Shown one piece after another: positions 6,221 to 62,739 of a stretch of DNA of 64,000 nt (its first letter is position 1; the number at the start of each line of letters is the position of its first letter). Under the pieces are notes generated by a model. It was not told the origin of the DNA, made no database searches, and was given only the letters and a program-made list of their open reading frames with translations. The DNA comes from Alphaproteobacteria bacterium (GTDB lineage: Bacteria; Pseudomonadota; Alphaproteobacteria; TMED109), in contig JAJDWH010000043.1 in assembly GCA_022825705.1 (NCBI GenBank), positions 1 to 64,000 on the forward strand. The letters are read 5' to 3'. Made by a program: the position numbers and the translations under genes.

Positions 6221-6904
6221 ATGATCGGCGACCCGCTCGCCCTCCGGATTCACACGCCGGTCGGCCGGGCAACGCCTGAGCAGTTGGCGGCCGTGGCAGG
6301 CGCGTCAACCAGTTTCCTCGCCGATGCTCAACAGGGCTGGAACTGCATGGACGTGGGGATTCGGCCGCTCGACCCGGACATGCGTTTTGCCGGCATTGCC
6401 GTCACGGTCTCCGGCGGGCCGCGGGACATTCTCGCGGCGGTAGCGGCGCTTGATGTTGTGGCGCCGGGCGATGTCCTGGTGCTGGCAACCGGGCGTGATG
6501 AGAGCGGGGCCGTCATCGGCGACCATTACGCTGCGGTCGCCAAACAGAAAGGGGTGGTCGGGATCGTCACGGACGGCTTGGTGCGAGATGCGGCGGGCAT
6601 CCGCGCCAAAGGCCCTCCGACGTTTTCGCGGGGATTCAGGCCGAACGGCGGGTACCGCAACGGACCGGGGGAGCTGAACGGCCCCGTCAGCGTAGGCGAC
6701 GTGGTCGTGCAGCCGGGAGACATCGTGGTGGCTGACGAAGATGGCGTGGTGGTGGTGCCCCGCGTCCAGGCTGAACGGGTGATCTCTGCTCTGGCGGACG
6801 TGCAGGCGAAGGAAGACGCGCTTGAGGAGCGGATTGCTCGCGGCGAGGTCACCACCATGTGGGACCGTGCCCGCTACGTGGAACGCGGCGTCGAAGAGAT
6901 CTGA
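6221..6904 (+). CDS. RraA-family aldolase/decarboxylase-like protein
   Basis: The 227-residue protein belongs to the RraA/HMG-aldolase fold (once called demethylmenaquinone methyltransferase). It has the family signatures GIVTDGLVRDAAGI and VVADEDGVVVVPR, including the Asp/Arg pair that binds the divalent metal and pyruvyl group in catalytic members. Such enzymes act as 4-hydroxy-4-methyl-2-oxoglutarate aldolases or oxaloacetate decarboxylases. The start at 6221 (MIGDPLALRI) is chosen because sequence further upstream is not protein-like. It opens a three-gene operon with a 2-hydroxyacid dehydrogenase (11-base gap) and an HpaI-type aldolase, which points to breakdown of a hydroxy/oxo acid rather than RNase E inhibition. 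Confidence 0.8.
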   Translation: MIGDPLALRIHTPVGRATPEQLAAVAGASTSFLADAQQGWNCMDVGIRPLDPDMRFAGIAVTVSGGPRDILAAVAALDVVAPGDVLVLATGRDESGAVIGDHYAAVAKQKGVVGIVTDGLVRDAAGIRAKGPPTFSRGFRPNGGYRNGPGELNGPVSVGDVVVQPGDIVVADEDGVVVVPRVQAERVISALADVQAKEDALEERIARGEVTTMWDRARYVERGVEEI

Positions 6905-8733: not shown

Positions 8734-10518
8734 GTGACGGCCCCGGTGCCCGGTGACGCGCCGATCCCGGCGCTTCGCCGGCACGTCATGGAGGCGGTTC
8801 GACAGGTCGCCGGCACGTCGTCTGTCCCCAGCGGGGACTGGGAGCCGCTGCTGCAGCGCGCGGTGACACTGAGTCCGCCGCGCGACCCCGCGCACGGGGA
8901 CCTTGCCACCAACGCCAGTCTGGTCCTGGCAAAACGTGTCGGAATGAGCCCGCGGGAATTCGCCGACCGCCTGGCACGAGCACTGCCTGGGACCGCCGGC
9001 ATCGAATCTGCGGAAACTGCGGGCCCCGGTTTCGTCAACCTGCGGATCGCGCCATCGGCATGGATTCCGGCATTGCGGACGGCCGCGGCGGGCGGCGCCG
9101 ACTACGGTCGTTCCGGGATGGGCGAAGCGACGCCGATCAATGTCGAATACGTGTCGGCGAACCCGACCGGGCCGCTTCACGTTGGACACGGGCGTGGCGC
9201 CGTTCTGGGAGACGCGACCGCGGCCCTCCTGGCGTTCGCGGGCTTCACGGTCACCCGGGAGTACTACATCAACGACGCTGGCGGCCAGATCGACCAGCTC
9301 GCTCGCTCGCTCCATCACCGTTACCGCATGGCGGCCGGCGCCGAGAGCGCGCCGCCGGGGGAGGGCCTGTATCCGGGCGAGTACCTCCAGCCGGTGGCTG
9401 ATGAGCTCTTTGCGATGGACAGCGGACAGATGGTTTCTGCTGCGGAGAACGTGTGGCTGGAGCAGTTCCGAAAGACCGGTGTCGGCGCGATGATGAAGTT
9501 GATCGACCGGGACCTGGAACAACTCGGCATTCGCTTCGATGTCTTTGCGTCGGAGCGCGACCTGCGGGAGGCCGGCCGCGTCGACGATGCCGTAGGTGTC
9601 CTGGAAGAGCGAGATCTCGTCTACACCGGAGTACCGCCCCGGCCCAAGGGTGAGGCCGGTGAGGCGTGGGAGCCTCGTCCCCAACTGCTCTTCCGAGCCA
9701 GCCGGTTCGGCGACGATGCCGACCGCCCCCTGCGCCGGGCCAACGGTGAATGGACATATTTCGCGGGCGACCTTGCCTACCATTTTGACAAGTTCCGCCG
9801 AGGTTTCAGCGAGCAGATCAACGTGTGGGGCGCTGACCACGGAGGTTATGCCAAGCGCGTGCGCGCAGGACTCGCTGCCCTCAGCGAGGACTCGGCCAGT
9901 CTCGACGTCAAGTTCTGTCAGCTGGTGCGGGTCACACGTGCCGGGCAACCCGTGCGGATGTCGAAGCGCGACGGCAATATCGTCACGTTGGAGTCCGTCC
10001 TTCGCGAGGTCGGTCCGGACGTGTTCCGCTTCCTTATGCTGATGCGGCGGCCGGATGCGCCGCTCGATTTTGATCTGTCGGAGGCGGTGCGCCAGTCAAA
10101 GGACAATCCGGTCTATTACGTCCAATATGCTCACGCCCGGATCTGTTCGGTGTTCCGACGGGTCCAGGACCATGGGGAACTGAGAGCTCTCGACGTCGCC
10201 TCCGAGGCTGAACCGACGTTGCTCACCGATCCCCGGGAGGTGGCACTGATGCGGGAAGTCGCGCTCTGGCCTGAACAGGTCGAAGCGGCAGCGCGCGCCC
10301 GCGAGCCCCACCGCATCGCATTCCAGCTGTCGGAGCTGGCGGCCCGGTACCACGAGCTCTGGACGGCCGGGGCCCGTGGCGAACCGACCTTGCGGACACT
10401 GATCCCCGGGGACCGGCCGCGGACCGCGGCGCGTCTACTGCTGGCGGATGCGGTGCGGGCGGTGTTGCGCGCCGGCCTGTCGATTCTGGGCGTGACCCCG
10501 GTGGAGGAGATGCGATGA
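8734..10518 (+). CDS. argS: Arginyl-tRNA synthetase
   Basis: This class I synthetase charges tRNA-Arg. It shows the N-terminal Add-1 domain for the tRNA D-loop, the HIGH-type motif as HVGH (about residue 150, in NPTGPLHVGHGRG), a KMSKS-equivalent MSKRDGN, and the C-terminal DALR anticodon-binding domain ending in ILGVTPVEEMR. The start is uncertain: the frame is open from 8641, overlapping the aldolase gene. I prefer the GTG at 8734 because GGAAGGAAGG lies ten bases upstream and the resulting 594 residues match the family size; GTGs at 8695 and 8707 are alternatives. The SPOR gene begins inside its stop (ATGA). Confidence 0.95.
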   Translation: MTAPVPGDAPIPALRRHVMEAVRQVAGTSSVPSGDWEPLLQRAVTLSPPRDPAHGDLATNASLVLAKRVGMSPREFADRLARALPGTAGIESAETAGPGFVNLRIAPSAWIPALRTAAAGGADYGRSGMGEATPINVEYVSANPTGPLHVGHGRGAVLGDATAALLAFAGFTVTREYYINDAGGQIDQLARSLHHRYRMAAGAESAPPGEGLYPGEYLQPVADELFAMDSGQMVSAAENVWLEQFRKTGVGAMMKLIDRDLEQLGIRFDVFASERDLREAGRVDDAVGVLEERDLVYTGVPPRPKGEAGEAWEPRPQLLFRASRFGDDADRPLRRANGEWTYFAGDLAYHFDKFRRGFSEQINVWGADHGGYAKRVRAGLAALSEDSASLDVKFCQLVRVTRAGQPVRMSKRDGNIVTLESVLREVGPDVFRFLMLMRRPDAPLDFDLSEAVRQSKDNPVYYVQYAHARICSVFRRVQDHGELRALDVASEAEPTLLTDPREVALMREVALWPEQVEAAARAREPHRIAFQLSELAARYHELWTAGARGEPTLRTLIPGDRPRTAARLLLADAVRAVLRAGLSILGVTPVEEMR

Positions 10519-12217: not shown

Positions 12218-12896
12218 TCAGGCCGGTGCCATCGCCTACACGCTCTCGGTATGGGCACTGCCGGCGCTGACGGCGATCACGCTCCACGAGGCGGCGCACG
12301 GCTACGTCGCGGAACAGTTCGGCGACGACACGGCGCGTCAGGCAGGCCGGGTGAGCCTCAATCCCCTGCGCCACGTCGATCCGGTAGGGACGGTCCTGCT
12401 GCCGCTCGTGCTCTTGTTGATCTCGCCGCTGGTGTTCGGTTACGCGAAGCCGGTACCGGTGCGTTTCTTCCGCCTGAACCCGAGGCGGATCGGGATCGCA
12501 GTGGTGGCGCTGGCGGGGCCGGGCATGAACCTCGCGCTCGCGTTGCTGGCGGCGCTTCTGCTGCACCTGGTTCCGAGCGTTCCGGTCGGTGGTGGCTGGG
12601 TTGCCGACAATCTGGTGAATGCGCTCTGGATCAACGTGCTCCTGGCGCTCCTCAATCTGCTCCCGGTGCTGCCGCTGGACGGTGGGCGCGTGCTGTACGC
12701 CGCGCTGCCGCCCGGGTGGGCGCGGCGCTGGTCCACGACCGAGCGCTACGGGTTCCCGGTGCTGCTCGCGGGGTTGGTGCTGGTGCCACTTGGGGCATCC
12801 GCACTGGGAGCCGAACTTCCCATATTTCGGTGGATTCTTGGCGAACCGGCCCAATATGTGGTATCTATCATCATTCGCATGGTGGGGCTTACGTGA
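12210..12896 (+). CDS. Site-2 protease family (M50) membrane metalloprotease
   Basis: The 228-residue polytopic protein has the zinc motif HEAAH (residues 28-32, within a membrane helix) and the second signature NLLPVLPLDGGRVL around residue 146, supplying the third zinc ligand Asp. It is the short M50 type without PDZ or CBS domains. Such enzymes cut membrane-embedded substrates; the target is unknown. It overlaps nagZ by 8 bases and scpA by 4 (GTGA), so translation is coupled through this cluster. Confidence 0.85.
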   Translation: MVDQAGAIAYTLSVWALPALTAITLHEAAHGYVAEQFGDDTARQAGRVSLNPLRHVDPVGTVLLPLVLLLISPLVFGYAKPVPVRFFRLNPRRIGIAVVALAGPGMNLALALLAALLLHLVPSVPVGGGWVADNLVNALWINVLLALLNLLPVLPLDGGRVLYAALPPGWARRWSTTERYGFPVLLAGLVLVPLGASALGAELPIFRWILGEPAQYVVSIIIRMVGLT

Positions 12897-14483: not shown

Positions 14484-15773
14484 CTAACCGCCCAGCCGTC
14501 GGAGTTCCTCGAGACAGCGGTCCCGGCCACGCGTGAAGTCGCCGTCCGCCCACCATACTTCGACGGCGCGGAGCAGCGCCCGGCGCCTCGGGCCTGCGGG
14601 TACGCCGAGCCGGACAACGTCGTCGCCGCCCAGCGGGAAGACCGGCCGCTTCCACGTCTGCATCTCCCGGGCAAGGCGGCGGACGACGTTCGGCGCGGGC
14701 GCCCCGGTCCGTGCAGCGCCCAGCAGCAGGCGATCGAGAGCCCGAGGGCTGCCGCCCGCTTCCCAGACGTGCCGCCTGGCCTCGGGACAGGTTCTCGCCG
14801 GTGGCCCGGCAACTGCGCTGGCACGAAGGCGTCGGGACTCCGTCCTGGTGAGTCGAAGGCGGGCTTCGGCTGTCTTGGCCCCCGGCACCGTGTCGACGAG
14901 TGCGCAGATTCGCCGTCCCGGATCGTTGAGACCGAGCAGTCCTTCGAGATGCACCAACCGGCCCAGGGTCTGGAGCCGCCGCCTCGCGGTCCGGGACGCC
15001 GGATTGCTCCAGTTGCCCACCACCCGCTGGAGGGTGCCGGTCGCGGCCATCGCCTCCACGGCCGGAACCGGTTGCTCAGCGGCCAGCAGCCGCAGCAGCT
15101 CTGCCCTGAGCCGTTCGCCGGAAACGAGCCTGAGACCGGGAAGTGACTTGGCGATGGCATTGAGATTCACGCGATCGTGCACGCGCCCGCCGAACCACGC
15201 GAACATGCGAAAGTACCGAAGGATGCGGAGATAGTCCTCGTGAATTCGATGTGCCGCGGTACCGATAAAACGCACGTGGCCGCGAGCCAGATCCTGGAGC
15301 CCAAGATCGCTGACCCCGAACACCTGGAGATCGGCGCCCGCGTACAGCGCGTTGATCGTGAAATCGCGGCGCTCCGCATCGGCAATCCAGTCGTCCGAGA
15401 AGGCTACCTCGGCGGCCCGCCCGAAAGTCCGGACGTCGCGGCGCAAGGTCGTGACCTCCACTGAACCGGGTTCGTTGCGCGGCGGCAGCGCTGTGATGGT
15501 GCCGTGCGCGATCCCCGTGGCGACCGTCCGTATTCCCGCCTGGCGAAGGCGCCGCCGGACCTCGTGCGGAGGATGCACTGTGGCGACATCGACATCGAGG
15601 GTGTCACGCGGCGGCGTGAGCAAGGCGTCACGGACGCAACCCCCGACGAACAGCGCCCCCGGTCGGATCTCGGGCGTGTTGAGCAGCGCCATTACCTTCG
15701 CGACCAGGGGACGTTTCGGCCACGCGGGTGGGGTCGTGATCCGACCGATCACCTGCAGTGAGCGGACTGTCAA
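14484..15773 (-). CDS. CCA tRNA nucleotidyltransferase / poly(A) polymerase family
   Basis: This enzyme adds or repairs the CCA end of tRNAs. It has the class II nucleotidyltransferase motifs GGCVRDALL (residues 44-52), the metal-binding DVD (60-62 in LDVDVAT) and RRDFTINAL, followed by the RNA-binding helical domain with RILRYFRMFAWFG. The start is uncertain: TTG at 15773 overlaps the DUF6111 stop as TTGA and suggests coupling, while a GTG at 15752 also fits; neither has a clear ribosome binding site. It is third in a NUDIX-DUF6111-CCA operon that is conserved in alphaproteobacteria. Confidence 0.88.
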   Translation of the reverse strand: MTVRSLQVIGRITTPPAWPKRPLVAKVMALLNTPEIRPGALFVGGCVRDALLTPPRDTLDVDVATVHPPHEVRRRLRQAGIRTVATGIAHGTITALPPRNEPGSVEVTTLRRDVRTFGRAAEVAFSDDWIADAERRDFTINALYAGADLQVFGVSDLGLQDLARGHVRFIGTAAHRIHEDYLRILRYFRMFAWFGGRVHDRVNLNAIAKSLPGLRLVSGERLRAELLRLLAAEQPVPAVEAMAATGTLQRVVGNWSNPASRTARRRLQTLGRLVHLEGLLGLNDPGRRICALVDTVPGAKTAEARLRLTRTESRRLRASAVAGPPARTCPEARRHVWEAGGSPRALDRLLLGAARTGAPAPNVVRRLAREMQTWKRPVFPLGGDDVVRLGVPAGPRRRALLRAVEVWWADGDFTRGRDRCLEELRRLGG

Positions 15774-51019: not shown

Positions 51020-52726
51020 GTGCCATTTTCCATTGAGCGGGCGGCCTACGCCGCCATGTACGGGCCGACGGTCGGCGATCGGGTCAGGCTGGCCGACACC
51101 GACCTGTTCATCGAAGTGGAAGCCGACCGGACCGTGTACGGCGAAGAGGTCAAGTTCGGCGGCGGCAAGGTCATCCGCGACGGCATGGGCCAAGGATCTG
51201 CCGGCCGTGCGGACGGTGCGGTGGACACCGTGATCACGAACGCCCTGATCGTCGATCACTGGGGAGTGATCAAGGCGGACGTGGGCCTTCGCGATGGCCG
51301 GATCGCCGCGATCGGCAAGGCCGGCAACCCGGATACGCAGCCGAACGTGGACATCGTCGTCGGGCCGGGCACCGAGGCGATCGCCGGCGAGGGCCGCATC
51401 CTGACCGCCGGCGGCATCGATGCGCACATTCACTGGATCTGCCCGCAGCAGGTCGACGATGCCCTCTACTCGGGCGTCACCACGATGCTGGGCGGTGGCA
51501 CGGGCCCTGCTGAGGGGACGAACGCGACGACGTGCACGCCGGGGCCCTGGCACCTGGCCCGCATGCTGGAGGCGGCGGAGGCGTTGCCGGTCAATCTCGG
51601 TTTCTACGGCAAGGGGAACGCCTCCGAGCCGACGGCGCTGGTCGAGCAGGTGCGCGCCGGGGCCTGCGGCCTGAAGCTGCACGAGGACTGGGGCACCACG
51701 CCCGCGGCCATCGACACGTGCCTGTCCGTCGCCGACGAGTGGGACGTCGGCGTCGCAATCCATACCGACACCCTGAACGAGTCGGGCTACCTCGAGACCA
51801 CGACGGCCGCGTTCCGGAACCGCACGATTCATGCGTTCCACACCGAAGGGGCCGGCGGCGGCCACGCGCCGGACATCATCAGGCTCTGCGGCGAGCCCAA
51901 CGTGCTGCCGTCCAGCACCAATCCCACCCGTCCGTTCACCGTGAACACCGTCGACGAGCACCTCGACATGCTCATGGTGTGTCATCACCTGGACCCGAAC
52001 ATCCCGGAGGACGTGGCATTTGCGGAGAGCCGCATTCGGCGCGAGACCATCGCGGCGGAGGACATCCTGCATGATCTCGGAGCGTTCTCGATGATCGCCT
52101 CCGACAGTCAGGCCATGGGTCGAGTCGGGGAAGTGATCGTCCGGACCTGGCAGACCGCCGACAAGATGAAGCAGCAGCGCGGCCGTCTCCCGGAGGAGCG
52201 CGGCGACAACGACAACTTCCGGGTGCGGCGGTACATCGCGAAATACACGATCAATCCAGCCCGGACGCACGGTATCGACGGCGAGGTCGGGTCGGTCGAG
52301 GTGGGCAAGCTGGCCGACCTGGTGCTGTGGAAGCCGATGTTCTTCGGCGTCAAGCCCGATCTCGTGCTCAAGGGAGGGGCGATCGCCGCCGCGGCGATGG
52401 GGGATCCGAACGCATCGATTCCGACGCCGCAGCCCGTGCACTACCGTCCGATGTTCGCGGCGCTGGGGCGTGCCCGGTCCTCGTCATCGGTGACATTCGT
52501 CTCGCAGGCGGGCCTGGAGGACGGACTGGGCGAACTGGGACTGACGAAACGGCTGGTGGCGGTGTCGGGTACCCGTGCGCTCGGCAAGAAGGACATGGTG
52601 CTGAACGACCTCTGCCCGGCGATCGACGTCGATCCCGAGACGTACGAGGTCCGCGCCGACGGAGCGCTGCTGACCTGTGAGCCGGCAACCCGGTTGCCGA
52701 TGGCCCAGCGCTACTTTCTCTTCTGA
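51020..52726 (+). CDS. ureC: Urease alpha subunit (catalytic)
   Basis: The 568-residue subunit hydrolyses urea to ammonia and carbamate at a di-nickel site. All ligands are visible: H136 and H138 (HIHWICPQQ), the carbamylated K219 (GLKLHEDWG), H248, H274 and D362 ([10 protein letters not shown]). The mobile flap Cys/His are in VCHHLDP (321-323). No residue is missing, so the enzyme should be active. GTG is the start, four bases after ureB. Confidence 0.98.
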
Positions 52727-52737
52727 GTGCGACGGCA

Positions 52738-53199
52738 ATGCGGCGCGCGATTGCGGTGCTGCGCCACGGCGCCTGGACACCGCCGCCGGAGGGTCCGTCC
52801 GTGACCCTGGTGCATGACGACCGGCAGCGCCGCCGCGGGCGGCTGCGCAGCGATGACGGCGAGCCACTGCTCCTCGACCTGGAGACCGTGCCCCGATTGC
52901 AGGACGGTGACGGACTGACGCTTGCCGGCGGCGGCGCGGTGCTGGTTCGGGCGGCGCCCGAACCGGTCGTCGATATCCGCTGTGAATCTGCGGCGCACGC
53001 GGCCAAGGTGGCATGGCACATCGGCAATCGCCATGCCCCGCTGCAAGTGCTGGCGGATGGAGGCCTCAGGATTCAGGACGACCACGTATTGGCCGGGATG
53101 GCGGAGGGGTTGGGCGCGACCACGCAACGGCGGCAAGCCCCGTTCTCGCCGGAGCCCGGTGCATACGCCGTGTCCGATCCCGGGGAAGACCGCGGGTAG
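52738..53199 (+). CDS. ureE: Urease nickel chaperone UreE
   Basis: The 153-residue protein has the N-terminal peptide-binding domain (RRGRLRSDDGEPLLLDL) and the metal-binding domain with the family motif AWHIGNRHAPLQVL, whose His binds nickel at the dimer interface. The His-rich tail found in some homologues is absent; the protein ends in Pro/Asp/Gly. It hands nickel to UreG. The gap to ureC is 11 bases, to ureF eight. Confidence 0.9.
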   Translation: MRRAIAVLRHGAWTPPPEGPSVTLVHDDRQRRRGRLRSDDGEPLLLDLETVPRLQDGDGLTLAGGGAVLVRAAPEPVVDIRCESAAHAAKVAWHIGNRHAPLQVLADGGLRIQDDHVLAGMAEGLGATTQRRQAPFSPEPGAYAVSDPGEDRG

Positions 53200-53207
53200 G
53201 TCCGGGC

Positions 53208-53879
53208 ATGGAAGCCGATCGGCGCATCATCCGCCTGATGGCCTGGCTCGGACCGTCGTTTCCGGTCGGCGCCTACGCGTACTCGCACGGAATCGAGTAT
53301 GCCGTCGAGGCCGGACTGGTCCGCGACCAGGACACGCTGGCGACGTGGGTACGCGGCATCCTCCGGTTTGGCGCCGCCCGCGTCGATGCCGACCTCTACC
53401 GTGAGACCTGGCACGCAGCCAGTTGCGGTGACGCCGAGCGTCTGGCCGTGGTGGGTGCGCTGGGCCGGGCCATGCGCGGCACGTTCGAGATCGCGACAGA
53501 GACCGCCGCGCAGGGAACCGCCTTCGAGGATACGGTTGCGGCGGCATGGGACGGCGCCCGCGCGGCGGACGGACGCGCGCCGCCGGTATATCCGGTCAGC
53601 GTCGCCGCCGCTGTCGCCCGGGAGGGCATCCCGCTTCGGGAAGGTCTGGCTGCCTACCTGCATGCCCTGGCCGCGAACCTGGTGTCCGCCGGGATTCGGC
53701 TCATCCCGCTCGGCCAGGTTGCCGGGCAGCGCATCCTGGCCGATCTTGAAGCGGACGTCCTCCGGGCCACCGGCGAGGCGCTCGGCCGGTCGCTGGACGA
53801 CATCGGCTCCGCAGCAGTCGTCGTGGACTGGGCATCCATCCAGCACGAAACGCAATACACGAGGTTGTTCCGATCATGA
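53208..53879 (+). CDS. ureF: Urease accessory protein UreF
   Basis: The 223-residue all-helical protein has the usual opening [20 protein letters not shown] and the late [19 protein letters not shown]. It works with UreD as the activator/fidelity factor for UreG GTP hydrolysis. The ATG at 53208 is chosen over a longer frame starting inside ureE. It overlaps ureG by four bases. Confidence 0.93.
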
Positions 53880-54490
53880 CCACACCGTTCCGCGTGGGCA
53901 TCGGCGGGCCCGTCGGCTCCGGCAAGACGGCCTTGCTCGATGGCCTCTGCAAGTCGATGCGCGAGAGTTATGACATCGCCGCCATCACCAATGACATCTA
54001 CACCCGCGAGGATGCCGAGTTCCTGACCCGCTCCGGCGCGCTCACCCCGGAACGGATTCAGGGGGTCGAGACCGGAGGATGTCCCCACACCGCGATTCGC
54101 GAGGACGCCTCGATGAACCTGGCGGCGATCGCACAACTGGAGGCCGCGTTCCCCGATCTCGACGTCGTGTTCGTGGAATCCGGTGGCGACAATCTCGCGG
54201 CGACGTTTTCGCCTGAACTCGCCGACCTGACCCTCTACGTGATCGATGTCTCGGCGGGCGACAAGATCCCACGCAAGGGCGGACCGGGAATCACCCGATC
54301 CGACTTGCTGATCATCAACAAGACGGATCTTGCACCGCTGGTCGGCGCGGACCTTGAAGTGATGGACCGTGATACGAAACGGATGCGCGGTTCACGCCCC
54401 TTCCTGTTTGCGCAGGTGAAGCACGGCAAGGGCGTGCACGCAGTGGCGGAATTCATCGTGGAGGCCGGGGGTCTCGCAACGGAGCGTTAG
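53876..54490 (+). CDS. ureG: Urease accessory GTPase UreG
   Basis: The 204-residue SIMIBI GTPase has the P-loop GGPVGSGKT (residues 10-18), the nickel-binding CPH in [15 protein letters not shown], the [17 protein letters not shown] stretch and the guanine motif NKTD. GTP hydrolysis drives nickel transfer into urease. It ends the urt-ure cluster; the next gene is convergent. Confidence 0.97.
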
Positions 54491-60315: not shown

Positions 60316-60474
60316 CGACCACCGGCTCCCCAACTGGACGCCGGCAATGCGGCAGGGAAATCCGCATGCACGCTGGAGAGGTCGCGGGTGCGCTCAGTGG
60401 CGCAGGGGCGGGCTTGAACCGGCGGCTCGGTGACTCGACCTCGCTACAGCGCAGGCTTTAAGCGCGCCTAGGAG

Positions 60475-61479
60475 TCAACGCGGCTTGCGCGCCTTGTGGA
60501 AATACATGGGCGTAAAGATCCCCAGCCGTCCTGCGGCCACGAGACTGTCAGCCGCCACGTTGAGAAGTCTCTGTATCTCGAACGAGCCCTGGGGTACTGC
60601 CCGCGCGCCTTCCAGCACGCGCAAGGCCGCCGAGGTGATCTTGCGGCCCAGACGGGTCCTCGGCAGACCCCGCAGTGTCAGGCCGCTTCCCTCCAGCGGT
60701 CGATACCACGGTGTGTGCGCATCGGCGTCCGGGGCGCGGTCGCGCGCCTCGATCAGCTCGAAACCCGCGGCCTGCAGACCATCGGTGACGACCGTGTACG
60801 AAGCAATTTCCGGAAGCGCATTGCTGTATTCGATCCGTTCCTTGAGTTCCCGGTGCTCCGGCTTGTCACCGTCGTACAGCGGCGTCACGCACCAGTCGTA
60901 ACCGGCGAACACTGCCCCCGGGCGCAACACGCGGAACACCTCGGCGTAGGCGGCCGTCTTGTCCGGCGCGTGGGGAATAGCCTCGATATGGTAGGCCGCG
61001 TCAAAGGTCTCGGCTTCTGCAGGAATGGCCATGAAGTCGCCGTGCAAGGCGCTGCACAGGTGATCCAGCCCGGCCTCCCGGTTGTATCGGGCGCACTTCT
61101 CAATCTGATATGCGCTGAGGTTGAGGCCCGTGATCGAGGACCCGAATTGCCTGGCGATGGAGCGTTGCGGTCCGCCGACGCCGCAGCCGACATCCAGCAC
61201 CTTCATACCGGGCTTCAGGCCAATGGCCTCGCCCAGAAAATGCTGATGGCTAGCGAGGCAATCATCGAAGGACGCACCGTTCTTCATCGGTGCGAAGTGA
61301 AACGACTGACCCCAGCCGTACTCGTAGAAGTCGGTAATGAGATCGTAAAAGGCCTTCACCATCAGGGCGTAGTCTGCCTTGCCCCGCTCCTGACTGAGAC
61401 GGTACTTGGACAACGTGTCGGCCGTGTCTTCCGGACGAACAGCCTGGGAAATCGGATTGTGAAAGTCAGCCGCCATCAT
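60475..61479 (-). CDS. Sterol C-24 methyltransferase (SMT/ERG6) homologue
   Basis: The 334-residue SAM-dependent methyltransferase matches eukaryotic SMT motif by motif. It has the sterol-site signature YEYGWGQSFHF (52-62), the SAM motif LDVGCGVGGPQR (95-106), GDFMAIP, the region YHIEAIPHAPDK (163-174), and YDWCVTPLYDGDKPEHR (194-210) leading to IEYSNALPEI. Plain cyclopropane or phospholipid methyltransferases lack the YEYGWG and PEHR segments. The C-terminal sterol-MT domain (to residue 334) is present. It would add methyl to the delta-24 bond of a sterol side chain. The start ATG at 61479 (or 61476) lies inside the end of the Rieske oxygenase gene, a 14-base overlap. The identification is strong by motif; activity and substrate are inferred. 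Confidence 0.85.
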   Translation of the reverse strand: MMAADFHNPISQAVRPEDTADTLSKYRLSQERGKADYALMVKAFYDLITDFYEYGWGQSFHFAPMKNGASFDDCLASHQHFLGEAIGLKPGMKVLDVGCGVGGPQRSIARQFGSSITGLNLSAYQIEKCARYNREAGLDHLCSALHGDFMAIPAEAETFDAAYHIEAIPHAPDKTAAYAEVFRVLRPGAVFAGYDWCVTPLYDGDKPEHRELKERIEYSNALPEIASYTVVTDGLQAAGFELIEARDRAPDADAHTPWYRPLEGSGLTLRGLPRTRLGRKITSAALRVLEGARAVPQGSFEIQRLLNVAADSLVAAGRLGIFTPMYFHKARKPR

Positions 61480-62518
61480 TGCGTACCGACAAGTTGGCGA
61501 CGGGACCGTCAGGGTAGAACTGCCGGTACCACTGATGCATTTTGCGCCTGGGGTCCGCCTCTACGGCTCCCGGAGGACAGGGCCGGTAGACCTTGCTTTT
61601 CCAAATCGCCACGTCCTGTCTCCATTGCGAGATCCAGTTCCCGATCACATAGGACACCAGTGTGCGCGGCACCCGCCGGGCGGCGAACCAGCGGAAGCTC
61701 ACCAGCTGCTTCAGCGGCTCCACGGGGGTGTGCAACTGGAACATGATGATCTTGCCGATTCTCGGAATCTGGAATTCGAATCTTACGATACTGCCTGGGC
61801 CAAGAAACGTGATTACCGCTTGAGATCTTGTTCTCTCGAATACCCGGCCCCCGATTTCCAGCGTTGCCTCGTCTTCGAAATAGGAAACGTGCCCAAGTTC
61901 GTCGTCCAGCGACCAAGACGGGCGGTGTCGGATTCGTATCCAGGGCAGTTTTATGCCGATCCACGGGATGCGCATGACACGGTGGACGTTCGAAAAGTGC
62001 TCGAAATCGACGCTGTTCTCGGCAAATTCGATGATGTGCATGTCGACTTCGCCGGCGTCGTGCTGGCCGCGATAGACGAGCTCCAGGCTGTCAATGTTCG
62101 GTTGACGGGGGAGCCGGTAGGGTGCCTCGGCGACGTCGCCAGATGACCGGTACATCATGACCATGCCGTAGTAGTCGATGGCCTCCCAGTACCGGTGAAC
62201 GAGAGGTTCGTCTTCAGCGCGGGGATGGCTTCGGGCCCGTCCGTTGGCGTCCAGTTGCCAGCCGTGAAACGGGCATTGCAGACGGTCCCCCGTGACCTTG
62301 CCGTAGGCCAGGTTGGCGCCCTGATGCGGGCAGAAAGCATCAACCGCCCCGATCTGGCCGTCCGTCTTGCTGCGAAACAGGGCGATCTGTTCCCCCAGGC
62401 ACTGAACGTGCCGCACGTCGCCGGGCCTGATCTCCTTCGACGCCGCTATCCGGTACCAGCCGTCCGGGTAAGGCGGCGGGTAGGTGAGCTCCCTGTCGCG
62501 CGTCGGGCTGAGGGTCAT
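61466..62518 (-). CDS. Rieske non-haem iron oxygenase, DAF-36/Neverland-like (sterol 7-desaturase type)
   Basis: The 350-residue oxygenase has a Rieske domain with C63-P-H65-x16-C82-P-F-H85 (FCPHQGANL and QCPFHGWQL) and a catalytic iron motif E167-x3-D171-x2-H174-x4-H179 (ENSVDFEHFSNVH). That exact spacing, the PYPDGWYRIAASKEI opening and the late W-rich C-terminus resemble DAF-36/Neverland, which makes 7-dehydrocholesterol from cholesterol. Bacterial aromatic-ring oxygenases and SdmA-type sterol demethylases are alternatives. It overlaps the sterol methyltransferase gene by 14 bases, implying shared substrate. No ferredoxin reductase gene is adjacent. Confidence 0.8.
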   Translation of the reverse strand: MTLSPTRDRELTYPPPYPDGWYRIAASKEIRPGDVRHVQCLGEQIALFRSKTDGQIGAVDAFCPHQGANLAYGKVTGDRLQCPFHGWQLDANGRARSHPRAEDEPLVHRYWEAIDYYGMVMMYRSSGDVAEAPYRLPRQPNIDSLELVYRGQHDAGEVDMHIIEFAENSVDFEHFSNVHRVMRIPWIGIKLPWIRIRHRPSWSLDDELGHVSYFEDEATLEIGGRVFERTRSQAVITFLGPGSIVRFEFQIPRIGKIIMFQLHTPVEPLKQLVSFRWFAARRVPRTLVSYVIGNWISQWRQDVAIWKSKVYRPCPPGAVEADPRRKMHQWYRQFYPDGPVANLSVRNDGG

Positions 62519-62739
62519 GAAACACCGGCCTGTTCCGGCACCGCGTGTGGCGGCGCGGACTATTCAAAGCGATCGGAGGGCTGTCAAATGACTTTGAAGA
62601 CCACAGGTGCCGGGTCCCGGGTGCCGTGAGGGTGACCTCGTCGGCGGCCGCGCGACCGTCGTCATCGCCGCACACAGGACCAATGCGAACTGGCTCCACG
62701 GCCTCCGATCACGGATGCACGGAGCCTCCCGGTCTCCGG

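Follow-up and report, generated by a model that had tools for sequence, protein, structure and literature searches.

A putative two-gene sterol-tailoring cassette pairing a sterol C-24 methyltransferase with a DAF-36/Neverland-like Rieske oxygenase in Alphaproteobacteria

Bacterial sterol C-24 methyltransferases (SMTs) and SdmA-type clusters have been published. The portions of Brown et al. 2023 (PMC10070321) cited here report that SMTs recovered from sponge and other metagenomes act on desmosterol and 24-methylenecholesterol in vitro, that some bacterial SMTs are inactive in vitro, and that clusters combine sdmA/sdmB with other sterol homologues; the main text does not use the terms Rieske, Neverland, isomerase or desaturase. 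Steroid clusters of Ircinia symbionts have a core of ERG24, CYP51 and a cyclase according to the cited part of Kelly et al. 2022 (PMC9531527), and the cited part of Mohanty et al. 2020 (PMC7074536) describes msb, an overlapping oxidoreductase–Rieske pair with an SMT, whose Rieske protein the authors liken to C-4 demethylation enzymes. DAF-36/Neverland is a cholesterol 7-desaturase, as given in the cited part of PMC7609953. The original prediction for the locus studied here had mentioned earlier reports of bacterial SMT homologues from sponge-associated and uncultured bacteria, which the published record bears out (PMC10070321, cited portions). Our literature search, covering few subscription papers and no preprints, returned no description of a bacterial Neverland-like enzyme or of an SMT paired with one, an absence that is weak evidence.

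An overlapping gene pair and its spread

The window is the whole 64,000-nucleotide stretch of DNA that was analysed, and its genome is referred to as G000. The features discussed below are as follows.

60475..61476, minus strand: gene for a sterol C-24 methyltransferase (SMT, A type), 333 aa when started at the conserved ATG (open reading frame, Sterol_MT_C, start in 6/6 loci, tree)
60481..60660, minus strand: Sterol_MT_C domain (Pfam)
61162..61197, minus strand: SAM-binding motif LDVGCGVGGPQR
61294..61326, minus strand: SMT signature motif YEYGWGQSFHF
61466..61476, minus strand: conserved 11-base overlap of the SMT and Rieske genes (G000, G001, G004, G005, G006, L044)
61466..62518, minus strand: A-type Rieske oxygenase gene, KshA_C class, DAF-36/Neverland-like, 350 aa (open reading frame, Rieske and KshA_C domains, trees)
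61982..62020, minus strand: non-haem iron motif E167-x3-D171-x2-H174-x4-H179 (motif, alignment)
62264..62332, minus strand: Rieske [2Fe-2S] ligand motif C63-x-H65-x16-C82-x2-H85 (motif, alignment)
about 60340..62622, no strand: segment absent in one piece from G002 (similarity of the L205 flanks to the window, 90-92%, extends to about these positions)

Both predicted open reading frames are present and overlap, at 60475-61479 (minus, 334 aa as first called) and 61466-62518 (minus). The overlap itself stands, and the 14 bases originally claimed give way to a conserved value of 11: one ATG is common to all six orthologous loci with an intact pair (five genomes of the genus and L044), and the SMT more likely starts there, at 61476, because the extra ATG at 61479 occurs in the window only and is missing from the other five loci. 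Over the 15 pairs of these six loci, dN/dS was 0.13-0.30 for the Rieske gene and 0.14-0.27 for the SMT gene, indicating that both encode maintained proteins under purifying selection rather than chance open reading frames. Conservation of the overlap, and the joint absence of both genes from one congener, make co-transcription plausible, as had been proposed. The neighbours of the pair were assigned to NnrS, amidohydrolase and DRL-type oxidoreductase by Pfam and to GNAT and M16 peptidase by eye; inspection of the surroundings, with six window proteins domain-scanned and the rest judged by eye, revealed no reductase.

The 2-kb pair is whole in five of the seven genomes of the genus. The two window-matching flanks in congener G002 are separated by about 0.13 kb of L205 that has no match, and in congener G003 the Rieske gene is deleted and the SMT kept. 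Such pairs extend to other bacterial lineages: an A-type Rieske also adjoins an SMT in four further MAGs (L044, L056, L071 and L074), three of these SMTs being distant; the gene order is reversed in L056, where a start at 6660 would give a 4-base overlap with the SMT. The quick SMT tree places L044 in the window's clade and L056 and L071, L074 in two or more others, and forces at least five label changes in all, some of them within the window's clade. No A-type Rieske was found beside the close SMTs L045-L048 in their available flanking sequence. The pair is, as judged from these loci, a 2-kb two-gene cassette, and the selection on its genes, their coupling and their enzyme families are established at the sequence level.

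Identity of the two enzymes

The window SMT scores 72.1 bits against Pfam Sterol_MT_C (cut-off 21.7), carries both the aromatic YEYGWG motif and the SAM motif, and shares 47% identity with Arabidopsis SMT1 and 41% with yeast ERG6 over 305-312 aligned residues (provisional reference sequences). In a quick-search tree of 65 rows, whose two eukaryotic rows are provisional sequences, it falls within an SMT set that takes in yeast ERG6 and Arabidopsis SMT1 and excludes other methyltransferases, the grouping on which the original prediction had staked its assignment; domain score, motifs and tree place together uphold the identity as a sterol C-24 methyltransferase, so that side-chain methylation by this enzyme is very likely. 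The SMT set, drawn from 80 loci, left out L082 (33%), L084 (28%), the partial match L088 and other rows from L087 on, and many of its members are located beside other sterol genes. The EATCHAP stretch of the yeast and plant enzymes reads EAIPHAP in the window SMT and is altered across the A-type SMTs of the genus and L044, and its Cys is retained in the close SMTs L045 and L046. To our knowledge, EATCHAP is a conserved feature of yeast and plant SMTs that is not known as essential, and it was not treated as defining.

The Rieske protein contains a Rieske domain (81 bits) and a KshA_C domain (50.3 bits, cut-off 23.3), and its four [2Fe-2S] ligands as well as N168, D171, H174 and H179 are invariant in the 24-row alignment A5. 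The motifs quoted in the original prediction, FYEYGWGQSFHF, LDVGCGVGGPQR, CPH-x16-CPFH and ENSVDFEHFSNVH, were all found, but the Rieske and iron motifs proved not to be diagnostic for Neverland: the patterns E/D-x3-D-x2-H-x4-H and C-x-H-x16-17-C-x2-H, printed for DAF-36/Neverland in the cited part of PMC7609953, fit the window Rieske and the two tested solved KshA sequences as well. DAF-36 (provisional sequence) also has Rieske and KshA_C domains, with 105 bits for KshA_C and a Rieske spacing longer than the printed pattern, and is 28% identical to the window Rieske over 341 residues. KshA_C scores were 48-91 bits for A-type proteins (window 50) vs 205, 249 and 282 for the three KshA-like proteins scanned; the other bacterial Rieskes L161-L163 resemble the A type in score (47-91 bits) and in the E at the first motif position. 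All eight A-type proteins scored 116-143 bits against DAF-36 (provisional sequence) and 84-117 against either solved KshA, a comparison that is weak because B-type Rieskes give the same preference (11/11) even though a B + DAF-36 grouping is rejected on the tree (p 0.019). The A-type Rieske loop is without the DAF-36 insertion and equals that of KshA in length, and the stretch GPG...Q..TP...L.Q.V.FR.F is common to seven of the eight A types and DAF-36 (provisional sequence), is partial in L071 and is not found in the KshA rows.

The best-sampled Rieske tree joins the A type to DAF-36 at 90/79, with DAF-36 represented by one provisional row, and gathers seven KshA-like rows (two solved KshAs and five labelled KshA by similarity) in a separate clade at 99/98, outside which the window Rieske falls. 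This tree included L071, a long branch left out of the preceding tree, and kept three of nine SdmA-type rows; the L074 Rieske, whose reading frame is broken, was excluded from all Rieske trees. Neither alternative grouping was rejected (A + KshA, p-AU 0.137; KshA + DAF-36, p 0.213), and trees with fewer KshA rows gave no separation of A type, DAF-36 and KshA. Among solved structures the best sequence match was KshA 4qdf (94.5 bits), and Foldseek with the predicted structure also ranked KshA first (TM 0.61, rmsd 6.8), with other Rieske oxygenases close behind; the model, built from 24 sequences (pLDDT 78.6) after an 18-sequence model (mean pLDDT 52.1) was set aside, confirms the fold class only. 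The predicted Neverland-like assignment was thus retained for the KshA_C class and for the grouping with DAF-36, and qualified by motifs that fit KshA and by the surviving A + KshA tree, so that the placement with DAF-36/Neverland rather than KshA is not decisive. Of the bacterial branches, the A type may lie closest to the animal enzyme, and C-7 desaturation is the leading, unproven reading.

Sterol source, proposed reaction and alternatives

The genome-wide search gave no match to squalene epoxidase or oxidosqualene cyclase in the G000 assembly, as the original prediction had found for the window, and no cyclase was detected in the MAGs of L056, L071 and L074, whose contigs are 6.5-15 kb. 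The further step from a missing cyclase to a host or prey sterol is weakened: cyclase-family matches occur in three of the seven genomes of the genus (G001, G005 and G006; not in G002-G004), and in the nearest relative, G005, the flank of a sterol cluster aligns with G000 contig C36 at 96-98%, a contig that ends 1.8 kb past the last match. Because of these congeneric matches and this contig break, the host- or prey-sterol inference is not established. A second sterol locus in the same genome, outside the window, contains another SMT, a Rieske, a P450 and an ERG2-type isomerase.

We infer the activities, the substrate, the reductase and the position oxidised as follows. The SMT would methylate C-24 in the side chain of a delta-24 sterol, with SAM as the methyl donor, and the Rieske, probably co-expressed, would oxidise the nucleus of the same sterol with electrons from an unlinked reductase, most likely by DAF-36/Neverland-type C-7(8) dehydrogenation, yielding 24-alkylated delta-7 or delta-5,7 sterols. 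The substrate could be made in the genus via a separate cyclase cluster or acquired from a eukaryotic host. It is reasonable to suggest that the pair is a sterol-tailoring cassette, in which the SMT probably methylates C-24 and the Rieske oxidises the nucleus, with C-7(8) as the most likely site. The altered EATCHAP stretch, the inactivity of some bacterial SMTs in vitro, the G003 SMT that has lost its Rieske, the SMTs L045-L048 and the lack of a recognised reductase nearby weigh against this reading. Oxidation of the nucleus at some position is highly probable, and assignment to C-7 in particular is tentative. It is rather unlikely that bacteria hold a true DAF-36/Neverland counterpart in a transferable SMT cassette and remodel acquired sterols to 24-alkylated delta-5,7 or delta-7 sterols.

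The Rieske might also act elsewhere on the nucleus or hydroxylate it, for instance by C-9 hydroxylation or C-5 desaturation, giving 24-alkylated oxysterols or other dienes instead of delta-7 sterols. The 9-alpha-hydroxylase KshA is the solved structure that it matches best, in sequence as well as in fold, the two share the iron motif, and the A + KshA test did not separate them; however, the KshA-like rows form their own clade, three of them score far higher for KshA_C, and they lack the stretch common to most A types and DAF-36, so that this outcome is possible but somewhat doubtful. The KshA_C domain would also suit steroid catabolism, in which the Rieske would be a KshA for B-ring opening and its link to the SMT would be incidental, but the pairing of A-type Rieskes with SMTs in other MAGs, the position outside the KshA-like clade and the NnrS, amidohydrolase, DRL-type oxidoreductase, GNAT and M16 peptidase neighbours make it improbable. 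On the KshA_C scores and the best-sampled tree, KshA proper is not favoured, although the A type could be its sister group.

Of the 42 SMT loci examined, 9 have an SdmA-type Rieske nearby, and the literature describes a sponge symbiont with overlapping oxidoreductase–Rieske genes and an SMT (PMC7074536, cited part), so that the pair might be a fragment of a known bacterial sterol cluster with the Rieske as SdmA C-4 demethylase. This is scarcely credible given a score of 55.9 bits against the SdmA model vs 386.7 for the SdmA-like gene of G005 (both below the cut-off of 600), a catalytic domain of KshA_C and not VanA_C type, an iron motif spacing of x4 and not x3, and the separation of the A type from the SdmA-type clade at 100/100; model score, domain, spacing and tree led us to reject SdmA identity. 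Quite improbable, too, is a methyltransferase acting on another isoprenoid or specialised metabolite in a cassette unrelated to sterols: among solved structures the protein is closest to other methyltransferases, including 3bus and MitM, and its top NCBIfam hit is to a sarcosine/dimethylglycine methyltransferase model (72 bits, far below the cut-off of 550), but Sterol_MT_C exceeds its cut-off, the 41-47% identity to ERG6/SMT1 (provisional sequences) extends over 305-312 residues, and many SMTs of the set occur in loci with other sterol genes.

Comparison with known sterol systems

Sterols with altered side chains and ring double bonds serve as markers of animals and algae in the fossil record; in insects and nematodes, the route to steroid hormones begins with 7-desaturation. 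If the sterol-tailoring reading is true, bacteria holding this mobile cassette could alter a sterol at both ends, perhaps a sterol that they do not make themselves, and its two small genes make the proposal directly testable.

The window SMT belongs to the same enzyme family as the bacterial SMTs of Brown et al., whereas its partner is a different Rieske type and no cyclase is seen in the window. In the cited parts of PMC9531527 and PMC7074536, an SMT accompanies sterol genes in the Ircinia clusters and in msb, several clusters contain ERG2, and there is evidence for horizontal transfer among many phyla; the window cassette, in contrast, has only the SMT and a KshA_C-class Rieske. SdmA resembles the window protein as a Rieske oxygenase of bacterial sterol pathways and differs in its VanA_C catalytic domain, iron-motif spacing and clade. 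The KshA 3-ketosteroid 9-alpha-hydroxylases (4qdf, 4qdc, 2zyl) share fold class, domain architecture and metal ligands with the window Rieske, but KshA has D where the window has E at the first motif position, and its relatives have higher KshA_C scores, a separate clade and no Q..TP...L.Q.V.FR.F stretch. DAF-36/Neverland is alike in its KshA_C domain, its E-x3-D-x2-H-x4-H motif and its place as the nearest branch in the best-sampled tree, whereas the window Rieske is bacterial, is without the N-terminal extension of about 60 residues and has a shorter Rieske loop.

The Rieske–SMT gene pair and its conservation

On the minus strand of the window (contig C24 of a 3.49-Mb, 93.6% complete assembly, G000), the Rieske gene comes first and the sterol C-24 methyltransferase (SMT) gene follows, with their ends overlapping:

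61466-62518, minus strand: Rieske oxygenase gene (350 aa), an ORF with Rieske and KshA_C domains
60475-61479, minus strand: SMT gene, an ORF with a Sterol_MT_C domain

A DRL-type oxidoreductase gene lies upstream on the same strand (62740 onward), amidohydrolase and NnrS genes occupy the plus strand on the opposite flank, and no recognisable sterol genes were found among these neighbours. Elsewhere in the window, urease subunit-like and UreG-like proteins were noticed by eye (51020-54490).

The methyltransferase is very likely an SMT, as the original prediction had proposed: its Sterol_MT_C domain scored 72.1 bits (Pfam cut-off 21.7), and it shares 47% identity with Arabidopsis SMT1 and 41% with yeast ERG6, both reference sequences being non-database copies. 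It is 50% identical to a second SMT of the same genome and reads EAIPHAP at the EATCHAP stretch. The Rieske protein contained a Rieske domain (81 bits) and KshA_C (50.3 bits, Pfam cut-off 23.3). The predicted gene overlap stands but its length of 14 bases probably does not, since the ATG giving it is present in the window genome only, whereas a single ATG common to all six intact-pair loci (G000, congeners G001, G004, G005, and G006, and locus L044) gives 11 bases. In the 15 pairwise comparisons of these loci, dN/dS by a simple Nei-Gojobori estimate ranged over 0.13-0.30 in the Rieske gene and over 0.14-0.27 in the SMT gene. The pair is real and under selection; its family identity, selection, and coupling are established at the level of sequence comparison.

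Gain and loss of the pair

Sterol_MT_C matches occurred in 9 of the 192 relatives searched, namely all seven genomes of the genus and two others of the class, and none was found in the searched family members outside the genus. Of the two class-level matches, that of G061 is marginal (22 bits, interrupted by a stop) and that of G092 is in pieces. In G092 (L040, L042), the SMT was seen split over several reading frames, with an SdmA-type cluster on a different contig. The locus runs NnrS, amidohydrolase, SMT, Rieske, and DRL oxidoreductase, then GNAT and M16 (these two by eye), and holds both pair genes in five of the seven genomes (G000, G001, G004, G005, and G006). Congener G002 has an empty site (L205:4214-4411), where both genes are jointly absent and about 0.2 kb of other sequence lies between intact flanks matching G004 at 96% and 93%. 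At least one congener has gained or lost the two genes together. G002 is close to G000 (96% in a flanking gene), and the pair is carried by G001 and G006, which are more distant, so the empty site probably reflects loss. Congener G003 retained the SMT but, relative to G001, lacks most of the Rieske gene (about 0.96 kb), and the Rieske start region joins the SMT upstream region directly (L027:9305-9560). G004 was also seen to carry a third SMT type (contig C68, L039:2967-3992), which matches the SMT of the window at 42% and lies in divergent orientation to a GPP34-P450-like gene.

Beyond the genus, genome contigs were scanned with an SMT alignment; within the best 80 of 232 relatives, 42 were counted as SMTs (L043-L081, L083, L085, and L086; 38-92% identity). 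A Rieske gene of the window's type (A type) adjoined the SMT in five of these 42 (L043, which belongs to the genus, and L044, L056, L071, and L074), a B type, as on contig C34 of G000, lay within the flanking DNA examined in six and an SdmA type in nine, with many flanks ended by contig ends. L056 has the two genes in reversed order, and a possible start codon at 6660 would give a 4-base overlap; in L071 the Rieske gene has a stop that ends at 9796, and 9815 is the first listed possible SMT start; in L074 the Rieske gene is in broken frames. On a quick SMT tree, L044 fell in the window's clade, L056 near a myxobacterial SMT, and L071 together with L074 in a third group; the paired label required at least five changes over the starred branches, some within the window's clade. 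SMTs close to the window's (L045-L048) showed no A-type Rieske gene in the flanking DNA examined, which counts against a fixed pairing. Among 398 genomes of the phylum, the only full-strength A-type match was the own genome (671 bits), followed by a KshA-like protein (135.7 bits), although misses are possible because at most four candidates were scored per genome.

Type and proposed reaction of the Rieske oxygenase

Both A and B types contain KshA_C, whereas the SdmA-like (C type) protein of G005 has VanA_C and scored 386.7 bits with the SdmA model, under its cut-off of 600. KshA_C scores were 205, 249, and 282 bits for three KshA-like proteins, 48-91 for A types, 84-90 for B types, 105 for DAF-36, and 47-91 for three other bacterial Rieske proteins of unknown role. 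The DAF-36 sequence in all scores and trees is a non-database copy; each of the eight ligand positions listed in PMC7609953 carries the expected residue in it. All eight A types scored higher with DAF-36 (116-143 bits) than with either solved KshA (84-117), but this does not by itself set the A type apart, because all 11 B types do likewise.

The original assignment to DAF-36/Neverland-like enzymes holds in part. In a tree with seven KshA-like rows (two of them solved KshAs, the other five labelled from similarity) and a single DAF-36, the A type grouped with DAF-36 (90/79) and the KshA-like rows formed a separate clade (99/98); a grouping of B with DAF-36 was rejected (p-AU 0.019), but A with KshA (0.137) and KshA with DAF-36 (0.213) were not, and trees from smaller samples did not separate A, KshA, and DAF-36. 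The A type also lacks the loop insertion of DAF-36, longer still in the B type, which counts against simple identity with Neverland. Sterol ring oxidation by the A type is likely, with C-7 desaturation the leading guess. The SMT would place at least one methyl group on C-24, and the Rieske centre would hand electrons to the mononuclear iron, which could abstract hydrogen from the sterol B ring to yield a 24-alkyl delta-7 or delta-5,7 sterol.

Sterol source and relation to known gene sets

The original prediction, seeing no cyclase or squalene epoxidase gene in the window, allowed for a sterol from host or prey. The G000 assembly likewise gave no match to either model, both of which recognise a fused G005 protein, but cyclase-family matches in G001, G005, and G006 (in G006 in pieces at contig ends) weaken that reading, as does a contig break near the corresponding site. 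A cyclase-family match also occurred in the outside relative G092, and none in G002, G003, or G004. Contig C61 of G005 (L143:152-8853) carries SdmB, SdmA, an ERG24 type, an epoxidase-cyclase fusion, and ERG2. Beginning 2 kb past this cluster, the DNA matches contig C36 of G000 at 96-98%, as far as position 12888; since C36 ends at 14668, in sequence transposase-like by eye, the absence may be an assembly gap. Once reverse-complemented, the end of C36 (L157) is identical to window bases 1-138, so that both contigs end in one repeat beside transposase-like sequence. Of the other MAGs with the pair (completeness unstated), that of L044 gave a cyclase-family match; the L056, L071, and L074 MAGs gave none.

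A second sterol-gene locus of G000, about 18 kb and largely present again in congeners, contains:

Contig C34, L006:4208-19139 and L009:1319-3077: SMT, LolA-like, MMPL transporter, B-type Rieske, GPP34-P450 fusion, ERG2-type isomerase, 3-beta-HSD-like, and steroid 5-alpha-reductase-type genes

The ERG2-type sterol isomerase scored 200.7 bits, and the 3-beta-HSD-like protein 216.6 bits with the SdmB model, under its cut-off. By analogy, together with the 5-alpha-reductase-type protein, the isomerase would fit further nuclear changes, and the MMPL and LolA proteins might serve membrane transport. The ERG2 start of G005, the nearest congener, looks nearly identical to that at C34. Fusions of GPP34 (Golgi phosphoprotein 3-like) with a CYP51-like P450 were found with Pfam at L006:15909-17993 (closest structures CYP51, 72.4 bits) and L144:5888-7906, and similar genes with BLAST at L046, L072, L077, L079, L080, and L039; the fusion adjoins SMTs repeatedly in several phyla.

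Among the papers listed by targeted searches, no SMT–Rieske pairing or bacterial Neverland was recognised. In vitro activity of bacterial SMTs (PMC10070321), steroid clusters spread via transfer in Ircinia symbionts (PMC9531527), the msb cluster (PMC7074536), and de novo cholesterol production by a myxobacterium (PMC10202945) are known, and the pair is a variation on bacterial sterol-tailoring gene sets already known.
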